Below are positions 40,232-44,837 of a stretch of DNA of 64,000 nt, piece by piece. The stretch lies in NCBI GenBank assembly GCA_028820655.1, contig JAPPIK010000025.1, forward strand, positions 124,001 to 188,000, read 5' to 3'. Position 1 is the first letter of the stretch, and each line of letters begins with the position of its first letter. The translations under genes were made by a program, and so were the position numbers. The notes under the pieces are model-generated. The model was given only the letters and a program-made list of their open reading frames with translations. It had not been told where the DNA came from and ran no database searches. The stretch is from Candidatus Poribacteria bacterium. Lineage in GTDB: Bacteria > Poribacteria > WGA-4E > JAJDTR01.

Positions 40232-41611
40232 TCAGCTTTGCTCGGGGGGTTCGACAAGCGATGCGCCGCCCGTCACGGCATCACTTGCAGCCAGCATAGC
40301 CAATTTGGCGTGAATCGTGTTGATCAACCCATCCAACTGCACCATGAGAGCGACATAATCATCGCCTGGCGGAAGCCTACCGTCAACGCGATCGTCTACC
40401 GCGCGCTTCTTGACACGAGATAGCACATCCAACAAACGATAGAGCTGCTGCGGGTTCGTTTCACCTCGCTGATCGGCTTCAATGTCTGCGATTCGCGTCA
40501 TGAATTCGTGCAATCGCATGCTCATACTCCGCCGCTTTTCGATGCGGTTTTGACGCAGCGTTGCACCGACCACAATAACCAGAATAGCCAGGACCAAGAG
40601 ATACGGCAGGGTATCGTTGAATGCTTCCGCCACGCTTGATGAAAAGGTAGGTTCGCCGCGATGATAATAATCCATGGCGCCGCGGTGGATGGGAAAATCC
40701 TGTTCTTCTTTCGCGAACCCTTCTGACAACTCCCTTAACCAGTTGCGGAAGGTCGTCGAGAGCGCCGTCTGCGTCATCGTACGCACGAGGAATGCGGGAA
40801 CATCCCGATGTGTGATGAGACTTGCTTTGACAGCAAGGCAGGTCGTGTCTTGCGTCGGCACAACATGCTCCCCCGAATACACGCTACGCGGCAATTGGAA
40901 AGGAAGGAATGCAGTGTTCTTGAAGACAAGCGCGTTCACCTCTTGAATGGGCAGGAGATCGTACTTTCCCGTCCCGAGCAATTTCCTCATCATCGGCGAA
41001 AGGCTGCCGGTAACGATAAACGCCGCGTCAATCTCTCCGCTGTCAAATGCCTTCAAGGTGTCGGCAAAATTGAGTTTGTGCATCTGCTTGTCATTCACGC
41101 TCATGTTGTAATGCCGAAGCACGTGTTGCGCCATCTGAATTGTGCCACTCTCTTTGGCACCTACGGAGACATTCACGCCGCTTAATCCCTGAATACCGTT
41201 CACGTTCATGCTCTTGCGAACGATGATGTGTAACACCTCAACGTAAAGATTGGCGACCGCCCTAACCTCTCGGAACGCTTCGACACTCTCACCCGATTCA
41301 TCTCCGTCGGCACCCCCAAGCCGCGAGCTCCCGTTGTTCTGAAAAAACGCAAATTGGACTTTACCTTCCGTGATTCGATTCAGGTTATCCGCAGAACCGT
41401 CTGTTGTCTGTATTTCGACCGTAATCCGGGGATATTCGAGTCGGAGCAGCTTCTTGAGCTGCAGTGCCAAGTGATGATATGCTCCACACTCCGATCCTGA
41501 AGCGATTGTGATGGAATGCGGAAGGCGTGAAGCAAGGCGATTATAACTGACGCCGGCGAAGATTATGCAAAGCAGAATTACAACAACGAGAATCCATCCT
41601 CGAATGTTCAT
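40232..41611 (-). CDS. TAXI-family solute-binding protein with two membrane segments
   Basis: The 459-residue protein starts with a membrane helix (GWILVVVILLCIIFAGVSY). A TAXI domain of TRAP transporters follows (about 30-320): ITIASGSECGAYHHLALQLKK, VQFAFFQNNGS and VNVSVGAKESGTIQMAQHVL. A second helix lies near residue 335 (LPYLLVLAILVIVVGATL), then a roughly 100-residue helical tail. Normal TAXI proteins are soluble, about 320 residues and paired with a fused TRAP permease; none is adjacent here. Instead its start overlaps the stop of an RCK potassium-channel gene by 4 bases. The extra helix and tail suggest a fixed sensor or regulator. Confidence 0.85.
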   Translation of the reverse strand: MNIRGWILVVVILLCIIFAGVSYNRLASRLPHSITIASGSECGAYHHLALQLKKLLRLEYPRITVEIQTTDGSADNLNRITEGKVQFAFFQNNGSSRLGGADGDESGESVEAFREVRAVANLYVEVLHIIVRKSMNVNGIQGLSGVNVSVGAKESGTIQMAQHVLRHYNMSVNDKQMHKLNFADTLKAFDSGEIDAAFIVTGSLSPMMRKLLGTGKYDLLPIQEVNALVFKNTAFLPFQLPRSVYSGEHVVPTQDTTCLAVKASLITHRDVPAFLVRTMTQTALSTTFRNWLRELSEGFAKEEQDFPIHRGAMDYYHRGEPTFSSSVAEAFNDTLPYLLVLAILVIVVGATLRQNRIEKRRSMSMRLHEFMTRIADIEADQRGETNPQQLYRLLDVLSRVKKRAVDDRVDGRLPPGDDYVALMVQLDGLINTIHAKLAMLAASDAVTGGASLVEPPEQS

Positions 41612-42738
41612 CCGATTTCCTCCTTGTCAATCCCAAGTTGGTCGAGCAGTCTCTGTCTCAACCCACTCTTGCCGGTAGCGTTCCACGCGTGCTTGCGATC
41701 GCCAAGCAGAATAAGTCCATCGCCATCCTCGACCATGAAATCTTTTTCGGGCGCCATGATGATTCTTCTCCCACGTATAACTCCCTGTGGCAGCACTCGT
41801 TCCTCCAATTCCACCAGACATTTGGAGATTTGAGCGAAAGTATACCCATCAAGTTGCGCATCCTGGATGCTGTAGAGTGTCGACTCGGTCCTGGTATCAA
41901 GCGTTGCAAATACCGACGGTCCAACTCCTCTATCAATAGCCGTTTTCGACAAAATTAGCGGCACAATCTCCCCCGTAAACACGATACGCTCACAGCCATT
42001 TCGCCGAAACAACCCTTCATTCTGCTTATCCAAACATTCCGCGACAATCTCAAGGCGTGGATGCAGATCGTCAATGATTCCAACAGCCGCCGCGGTAAGC
42101 ACATCGGCGCTGGAATCTTCTCCGCTGGCAAAGACTATTGCCGTGCGCGCCTCTGCCACGTTAGCTTGGATATATGTATTCGCGTTGGTTGGCGAACCGT
42201 GCGAAAAATAAATGTCATCGAAATTGTCGGCAACCCGGTTGGGCAATTCCTCAAAGGCCTCGGAGACAATCGCGATTGGAGACTCGCAGGTGTCCGCATC
42301 GGTGCGCAGATTCTCAATGACCGTTGTAATCTTGTCAGGGTTTTTGCTCCAATCTACTATTAATATGTGCCCATTCAGACGTAATCGAACCAATCCCTTC
42401 ACCCGCCTTTCATGAATGTCGGATAGCTTTGTAATTAGTTGGCTGGCCACTGTTGAAAAACACCCCAATGTTATGATGCTGAAGATGATTGTGGAAATTC
42501 GTCCTGCGTCGGTCTTAGCGGAAATGTCCCCATAACCGATGGTTGTCATGGTGATGAACGCTACCCATACCGAATCAAAGAGTTCCAAATTCGGATTTTC
42601 TCGCTCCTCAAAAGTGTGGAACGCGAACACATACAAAAGAAATGCGAGGAACATTATTTCGGAGACGAGCAAGGATGCACCACTTTTCCAAGGCAGCCAC
42701 CGACGTAATCGTTTTGCGATATGCTGGGGCGACATCAT
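41608..42738 (-). CDS. Two-helix potassium channel with RCK (TrkA-N/C) domain
   Basis: The 376-residue version from the Met at 42738 has TM1 (LLVSEIMFLAFLLYVFAF), a pore helix with selectivity filter TMTTIGYGD, and TM2 (ISTIIFSIITLGCFSTVA). A cytosolic RCK domain follows (GHILIVDWSKNPDKITTV, about residue 130). A TrkA-C-like end lies near residue 320 (RRIIMAPEKDFMVEDGDG, then LILLG). This is the MthK-like plan for ligand-gated K+ flux. The RCK glycine motif is altered (IVDWSKN), so the bound ligand may not be a nucleotide. Starts further upstream (to 42858) have no better site. Coupled to the TAXI gene by ATGA overlap. Confidence 0.87.
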   Translation of the reverse strand: MMSPQHIAKRLRRWLPWKSGASLLVSEIMFLAFLLYVFAFHTFEERENPNLELFDSVWVAFITMTTIGYGDISAKTDAGRISTIIFSIITLGCFSTVASQLITKLSDIHERRVKGLVRLRLNGHILIVDWSKNPDKITTVIENLRTDADTCESPIAIVSEAFEELPNRVADNFDDIYFSHGSPTNANTYIQANVAEARTAIVFASGEDSSADVLTAAAVGIIDDLHPRLEIVAECLDKQNEGLFRRNGCERIVFTGEIVPLILSKTAIDRGVGPSVFATLDTRTESTLYSIQDAQLDGYTFAQISKCLVELEERVLPQGVIRGRRIIMAPEKDFMVEDGDGLILLGDRKHAWNATGKSGLRQRLLDQLGIDKEEIG

Positions 42739-42893
42739 AATTGAATGGAGACCTGTAAACCGAGCGCTCGTCATTGACGACAACCGGCACCGTATCGCGG
42801 CAAGGAATACAGTGCATAACGATAGGATGTTCCTATCGTTAACGACAGGAACTATCAACTATGCGCTGACTCAGAGCCAAAACTATCCCCTCA

Positions 42894-43829
42894 TTAGGAA
42901 TCTGCCAGAACCGTGGATGGTCTGGTACCGAGTTCCCCTTCTCGCGACTTGTCATAGAATCGCCGCGTCGGATAGGCGAAGTTGATGTCTTGGTGGGCGG
43001 CAAACTGGTTCAAGACATCTTCCCAAATTGTCTCCGATGTGCCGCGGCGGGTACGCGGTTCACACAAATAACGGATGGTCAGTAGAACCCCACTTTCCGC
43101 GATGCTTGTGTAGACCGTGGGCGTTAGCACGGAATAGAATATCATGAACCTGCGGCTCGCCTCTTGAATTCGTTTCTGGGCAGCTTCACTTGAGTGCTGA
43201 GCGTGCTTCGTAACAATCTCTAGTAGAATCGTCTTGGCCTTTGTCCAATTGCTCTCGAAGGTCACCATCACCGGAAGTTCATTCCAGATATATTGAAACC
43301 CACTACTATAATTCGACACGACTTCACTCAACACTAAACCGTTGGGTATGTGAAGGAGTCGCCCAGTGCTCTGATCCGCATCCACCCAATTCCCGATTTC
43401 CATCAAGGTAAACTTAAAGATTCTCACGTCAATCACATCGCCTGCATGCTCTCCTATCTGAATTCGATCGCCCACATTAAACGGCCGACGCCAGATGACA
43501 TAAAACCATCCGGCAATAGCTGTCACTACGTCCTTCAGCGCAATCAGTAATCCGACAGCAGCAACAACTAGAATGGATGCCAAGTATTGAATGCCTTCGA
43601 ACCATACGCTTCCGACGAGCACAACCCCAAGAGCAGCGGCAACGCCCTTGGATGTCTTTCGCCATCGATATCGGAGACGTACGTCTTCCACTCTCCGCAG
43701 GACGATAGACATGACTACGGTACGGAGCAGCCAGAGTATCAATATGATGACTAATGACGTGAAGAGATTTCTCTGAATCAACGGCGTCAGTTTTGTTATT
43801 TGTGGAATCCATTGTGTAAGTGTTTCCAT
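42894..43829 (-). CDS. MscS-family mechanosensitive ion channel
   Basis: The 311-residue protein has four or so N-terminal membrane helices. The pore-lining TM3 region is AAVGLLIALKDVVTAIAGWF. The MscS beta-domain signature follows: RRPFNVGDRIQIGEHAGDVIDVRIF. A mixed alpha/beta C-terminal vestibule follows. It releases solutes on membrane tension. A TTG one codon upstream is also possible. It is first in the minus-strand set MscS, K+ channel, TAXI protein, with 155 bases between MscS and the channel. Together they suggest ion and turgor control. Confidence 0.9.
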   Translation of the reverse strand: METLTQWIPQITKLTPLIQRNLFTSLVIILILWLLRTVVMSIVLRRVEDVRLRYRWRKTSKGVAAALGVVLVGSVWFEGIQYLASILVVAAVGLLIALKDVVTAIAGWFYVIWRRPFNVGDRIQIGEHAGDVIDVRIFKFTLMEIGNWVDADQSTGRLLHIPNGLVLSEVVSNYSSGFQYIWNELPVMVTFESNWTKAKTILLEIVTKHAQHSSEAAQKRIQEASRRFMIFYSVLTPTVYTSIAESGVLLTIRYLCEPRTRRGTSETIWEDVLNQFAAHQDINFAYPTRRFYDKSREGELGTRPSTVLADS

Positions 43830-43907: not shown

Positions 43908-44837
43908 CTATTCGCGCGTGTAAGGGACGCCCAGCGCTTGAGGGGGAGTGGACCGGCCAACGAAGCCTGCCAGAACCAATAGTGTCAATACGTATGGCAG
44001 CATGAGCATGAACTGGTAAGGAACGTCCCATCCAATGGCTTGAAAACGGACCTCCAGCGACTCTCCAAGACCAAATAGGAGGGCTGCCCCGCACGCTTTG
44101 ACAGGATGCCATTTGCCAAATATTACGATTGCCAGAGCTATGAAACCCCTTCCGACGGTCATACCGGGGGTAAAGTAGGGAACATCGGCGAGTGACAGAT
44201 AGCCGCCAGCGAATCCCGCAATCACTCCTCCGAACAATACGCACAGTGTGCGTAATCTTCGCACATCAACACCGACCGCATCAACAGCTTTGGGGTGTTC
44301 GCCGCAAGCCCGAATTGTCAAGCCGTGTGAAGTTTGGAACAGATAAAAATACACGCAGGGAACAATTAGAAAGGTTAGAAAAACAAGGATGTTGTGCTGA
44401 AAAAAAGCCGCACCCACCCAAGGTATTCCGGACAGTAGAGGAATATGAACCTCACCAAACGCGGCAACTTTGAGCGCTGAACCGGTATAACCGAATAGTC
44501 TTTGATAGATAACCTCGGTCAAGCCTAACGCTAACAGCGTGATGCCCGTCCCGGTAACCACCTGATCTGCTGAAAGTCGAATGGTCAGGAATGCAAACAC
44601 ATAAGCGGTCATTCCTCCACTTAATCCGGCGGCAACTATGCCTATCCATGGAGCCAGGTTCGGAAGAGCGATGCCGGTATAAAAGGATCCCAACATTCCG
44701 AAGAATGCCCCCATTAGCATCATTCCTTCAATACCGATATTAATGACGCCGGAGCGCTGGACAATAACCTCACCCAATGCAGCCAAGAGCAATGGGGTTG
44801 CTTGTCGTATGGTTGCCGCGAGGATCTCTTCAAACAT
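43908..44837 (-). CDS. ABC transporter permease of the BMP/nucleoside type (NupQ/YufQ-like)
   Basis: The 309-residue membrane protein has eight to ten helices and the family signature EVIVQRSGVINIGIEGMML near residue 22, as well as ACGEHPKAVDAVGVDVRRLR, the cytoplasmic coupling loop that contacts the ATPase. Permeases of this type import nucleosides or simple sugars with a BMP lipoprotein, an ATPase with two domains and a second permease. None of these is beside it: a PEGA gene lies upstream and MscS downstream. The ATG at 44837 lacks a strong ribosome binding site. Confidence 0.9.
   Translation of the reverse strand: MFEEILAATIRQATPLLLAALGEVIVQRSGVINIGIEGMMLMGAFFGMLGSFYTGIALPNLAPWIGIVAAGLSGGMTAYVFAFLTIRLSADQVVTGTGITLLALGLTEVIYQRLFGYTGSALKVAAFGEVHIPLLSGIPWVGAAFFQHNILVFLTFLIVPCVYFYLFQTSHGLTIRACGEHPKAVDAVGVDVRRLRTLCVLFGGVIAGFAGGYLSLADVPYFTPGMTVGRGFIALAIVIFGKWHPVKACGAALLFGLGESLEVRFQAIGWDVPYQFMLMLPYVLTLLVLAGFVGRSTPPQALGVPYTRE

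Follow-up and report, generated by a model that had tools for sequence, protein, structure and literature searches.

What is a TAXI-family binding protein doing directly behind a potassium channel gene, and do the two products work together? Here, we report that in a 64,000-nucleotide stretch of DNA (hereafter the window), on contig C56 of a 5.88-Mb Candidatus Poribacteria MAG (G000), the TGA stop of an MthK-like channel gene sits within the ATGA of the TAXI start, the two being separate ORFs in different frames. The pair occurs in two families of Poribacteria, a little-studied bacterial phylum, which suggests a putative two-part solute-sensing ion channel. The minus-strand transcription order is BPD_transp_2 permease, MscS-type channel, MthK-like K+ channel and TAXI protein (Table 1). 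An initial annotation of this DNA had noticed both the overlap and an MscS gene upstream of the channel on the same strand, and both are present as described; the MscS and channel genes are separated by an intergenic gap of 155 bp, without overlap. A convergent FKBP gene lies downstream of the TAXI gene, and a promoter/terminator scan gave matches at chance level.

Table 1. Features of the TAXI-channel locus in window coordinates.
Feature	Position	Strand	Remarks
BPD_transp_2-family permease	43908-44837	-	
MscS-type channel	42894-43829 (ATG 43829)	-	MS_channel_2nd E=2.7e-12; neighbor within the genus, outside the conserved pair
MthK-like 2-TM potassium channel with RCK domain, 376 aa	41608-42738	-	
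Selectivity filter TIGYGD	42526-42543	-	T65/G67/Y68/G69/D70 invariant in the alignment of relatives
ATGA, channel stop/TAXI start overlap	41608-41611	-	overlapping arrangement retained in G001 and G070
TAXI-family binding protein, 459 aa, two membrane helices as anchor	40232-41611	-	
TM1/signal anchor of TAXI protein, residues 3-21	41549-41605	-	mean hydropathy 2.72
TAXI ligand-binding domain, residues 36-316	40664-41506	-	NMT1_3 match
TM2 of TAXI protein, residues 334-352	40556-40612	-	hydrophobic helix
Helical tail, predicted cytoplasmic, residues 356-447	40271-40546	-	AlphaFold2 helices and basic flank

The channel (Ion_trans_2, E=4.6e-16; Slo-like RCK, E=9.7e-8) has two hydrophobic helices flanking the filter and an RCK domain after them, i.e., the 2-TM pore, K+ filter and RCK domain of the MthK-like RCK K+ channels. 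Among solved chains it comes closest to MthK (best E=8.9e-18, residues 27-345), followed by the BK channels. The ATG at 42738 or 42735 was preferred as the start over the upstream TTG of the ORF, because similarity to relatives begins only there. Bacterial RCK channels answer to cytoplasmic ligands. The primary Ca2+ site of MthK, which we take to be D184/E210/E212, is mostly replaced here: in an alignment with MthK the positions of D184 and E212 are F202 and L235, and that of E210 alone is still acidic (E233), therefore Ca2+ gating at this site is not predicted.

The TAXI protein carries the substrate-binding domain of its family (NMT1_3, E=9.5e-36; TRAP_TAXI, 144.5 bits against a cut-off of 84.35, residues 6-317). 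The closest solved chain is that of Thermus TtGluBP (1us4, E=3.9e-20), deposited under the title 'putative GluR0 ligand binding core'. Residues Y45, S73, Q91 and E125 align with Y45, S75, Q93 and E125 of VcGluP, and VcGluP Y200 and M201 are replaced by I199 and V200. In VcGluP, Y45 and Q93 are the key determinants for L-glutamate (PMC11574862). Judged by the retained pocket residues, L-glutamate would be our best guess for the ligand, a guess that is only weakly constrained because the main pocket residues are common to TAXI proteins generally. The second membrane helix and the helical tail, both claimed at first reading, were also found: AlphaFold2 places helices at residues 325-381 (continuous through TM2), 387-409 and 417-447, giving a helical tail of about 90 residues. 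Please note that this model was built on a two-sequence alignment; its mean pLDDT is 42.9, the binding domain is not resolved, and it is confident in the tail alone (residues 361-440 at pLDDT about 69-85). A basic stretch, RQNRIEKRR, directly follows TM2 and, by the positive-inside rule, the tail is therefore placed in the cytoplasm.

The pair was then sought in 85 genomes of the phylum and in plasmid and viral collections. A channel at least 60% identical to that of the window is present in three of the 85 genomes, and the same three have a closely related TAXI gene; two belong to one genus, and the third (G070) to another family of the same class. Channels at about 32% identity, in other families, have no TAXI neighbor. 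The scan of genome contigs found a single relative, of the same genus, and the IMG/VR viral scan found none; the nearest named relative is Candidatus Poribacteria bacterium isolate jk18x1bzbins.36, whose TAXI protein is 88% identical. In G001, of the same genus, the entire gene order is retained, MscS included. In G070 identity to the window's proteins is 62% for the channel and 58% for the TAXI protein, and the gene overlap is retained, while accA takes the place of MscS upstream, and an RnfC-like and then a PduT-like gene take that of the convergent FKBP gene downstream; this pair is split between two contigs, which can be joined inside the TAXI gene because the last 141 bases of one match the other exactly at its end. 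The coupling of TAXI protein and channel proposed in the initial annotation, for which conservation in relatives had been set beforehand as a refutation test, is thus upheld by an overlapping pair in another family with different flanks. Because pair and overlap stayed while both flanks were exchanged, gene order argues that the pair travels as a unit and is more than a chance neighborhood; its independent occurrences number only two, both within one phylum. A TAXI-channel fusion protein was not seen in the 85 Poribacteria genomes or the plasmids.

Between the window genome and G070, the linker and TM2 of the TAXI protein (residues 321-355) are identical at 30 of 35 positions (86%), as against 129 of 235 (55%) in the lobe (Fisher p=4e-4). 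This conservation suggests a constrained membrane contact, although it does not name the partner. As a separate observation, the TAXI stop in G070 overlaps the RnfC-like gene (ATGA; L043:1-2522), and the PduT-like gene that comes next is a microcompartment shell gene; the operon may tie the pair to a redox or microcompartment function.

Taken with the analogy to GluR0 and to TAXI-GltS, on which the proposal of a sensor subunit acting in trans is based, we consider that the two genes may encode a ligand-responsive potassium channel whose TAXI subunit modulates the channel, a reading that in our judgment stands at an even chance. In such an assembly the TAXI protein would be held by its two helices in the inner membrane with the Venus-flytrap domain outside; the domain would close on an amino-acid-like ligand, and TM2 with the continuous cytoplasmic helix would relay the closure movement to the tail. 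The tail might then touch the pore or the RCK ring of the channel translated just before it, and so alter the open probability, in either gating direction, with a possible physiological role in the control of K+ and turgor or of membrane potential. A more specific version, i.e., a split ligand-gated K+ channel in which the separate TAXI subunit gates the RCK channel via the second helix and tail, having evolved independently of GluR0 and with one input from outside (TAXI) and one from inside (RCK), is put forward tentatively, at somewhat under an even chance.

As an architecture, the tailed TAXI protein is not in itself novel: channel-less examples occur on proteobacterial plasmids and in other Poribacteria. 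In the phylum, G019 has a TAXI protein with second helix and tail next to a transposase and without a channel. Two genomes of distant Poribacteria families, G065 (L044:6878-9259) and G021 (L047:3991-7421), have in common a tailed TAXI gene about 12 and about 2 bp, respectively, downstream of a DUF481 gene, which is the only DUF481 gene detected in each. DUF481 is the YdiY family. Elsewhere, DUF481/YdiY carries the annotation of a putative outer membrane protein induced by salt (PMC5504864). A Roseovarius plasmid (L085:4409-7212) also has a tailed TAXI gene downstream of a DUF481 gene, at a distance of about 700 bp. In G021 (L047:4989-7421) the TAXI protein is 810 aa long and contains a tandem pair of TAXI domains followed by a hydrophobic C-terminal helix and a tail. 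Plasmids of Caballeronia, Burkholderia, Pseudomonas and Roseovarius encode two-helix tailed orphan TAXI proteins with varied neighbors, and in five annotated records neither a TRAP permease nor a channel gene was found beside them; the probe was a consensus-like proteobacterial TAXI sequence, and the conclusions rest on the records that it retrieved. Homology between the poribacterial and the proteobacterial tails is not established (hhalign probability 35%). On two Rhizobium plasmids (L089 and L090), MthK-like 'ion channel' genes lie in a conserved cluster with PspA, YjfI, YjfK, DUF350, DUF1190 and glutathionylspermidine synthase-like genes; no TAXI gene was found beside the related channel in these two records, the YjfK/DUF350 genes being there instead. 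As the tailed TAXI protein occurs without a channel, the tail is not evidence for a channel partner, and it is the conserved pairing, not the architecture alone, that points to the channel.

These channel-less proteins also feed the alternative that survives best, namely that the two products are co-expressed from a shared transcript in one K+/solute-stress response without forming a complex, the TAXI protein acting on some other target. We regard it as unlikely, yet as deserving real weight: tailed TAXI proteins do occur with other partners (DUF481 in G065 and G021, varied genes in proteobacteria), and the G070 operon continues into the RnfC-like gene, but the overlapping pair has outlasted the exchange of its other neighbors, and the conservation of linker and TM2 suggests a membrane partner. 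Rather improbable is a tailed orphan transducer that came to lie behind the channel by chance, its conservation in two families reflecting inheritance or a single transfer with no functional meaning. The rarity of the pair, three of 85 genomes with two of one genus, agrees with that account. Against it, the overlap is retained between proteins that are about 60% identical, in loci whose flanks both differ.

A TRAP permease encoded elsewhere, e.g., the fused permease on contig C15, might instead be what the TAXI protein of the window feeds, and this we judge very improbable. No TRAP permease gene was found on contig C56, all DctM matches of the genome lying on C15, C2 and C4, so that the earlier claim of no such permease nearby stands. 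The C15 fused permease (L094:6570-8480) has no adjoining binding-protein gene, a point in favor of this reading; however, a TAXI protein on C17 (L095:6944-7990), which bears a lipobox-like signal but neither a tail nor a neighboring permease gene, fits it better, C2 has a standard TAXI-TRAP set, and the window protein possesses a second helix and a tail, both superfluous in a shuttle. The C15 permease and the C17 TAXI protein are possibly a split TAXI-TRAP system. No GltS gene was found in the genome either, as a TAXI-GltS system would have. Finally, a three-part osmotic unit that includes MscS, as initially suggested, was rejected and is hardly credible. In its favor, the MscS gene precedes the channel by 155 bp with the same orientation, and it is present in G001 too; but G070 keeps the pair although no homologue of this MscS was found there at E<=1e-5, and the space between MscS and channel is a gap, not an overlap.

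If the two-gene ligand-responsive channel is real, a dedicated periplasmic sensor subunit would couple K+ flux and membrane potential directly to solutes outside the cell, and the emerging roles of TAXI proteins beyond TRAP permeases would widen from transporters (GltS) to channels. Our literature search found no paper combining 'TAXI family' with 'potassium channel'. Compared with MthK, the channel has the same 2-TM pore plus RCK domain, while two of the three Ca2+-site acids are gone; to our knowledge MthK itself has no TAXI partner. The proteobacterial tailed TAXI proteins resemble that of the window in the N-terminal helix, TAXI domain, C-terminal helix, tail and lack of an adjoining TRAP permease, and differ from the poribacterial pair in having no adjacent channel gene. 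The TAXI-TRAP proteins (VcGluP, TtGluBP 1us4) share the binding domain and main pocket residues; however, they are soluble or lipid-anchored, lack a second transmembrane helix and work with an adjacent fused QM permease, whereas the window protein has two helices and a tail and no permease nearby. In TAXI-GltS of Bordetella pertussis (BP0403/BP0402), the TAXI gene begins over the stop codon of a gene for a non-TRAP membrane protein, to which it is translationally coupled (PMC12344293). The pair has the same kind of overlap, and both systems have a TAXI protein of unusual length and no TRAP permease (PMC12344293); in TAXI-GltS, however, the partner is a transporter, and the TAXI protein carries its extra domains at the N terminus and has a lipid anchor. 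GluR0 of Synechocystis, a prokaryotic glutamate receptor K+ channel, joins an outward-facing binding domain and a pore whose topology is inverted in a single chain, and it contributes to volume regulation when KCl is high (PMC13099474). The pair is not of the GluR0 family in the strict sense, as binding domain and pore lie in two ORFs, with a TAXI domain and an RCK-bearing channel of usual topology, but it would, like GluR0, work as one unit made of a Venus-flytrap domain outside the cell and a two-helix K+ pore of the GYG type.
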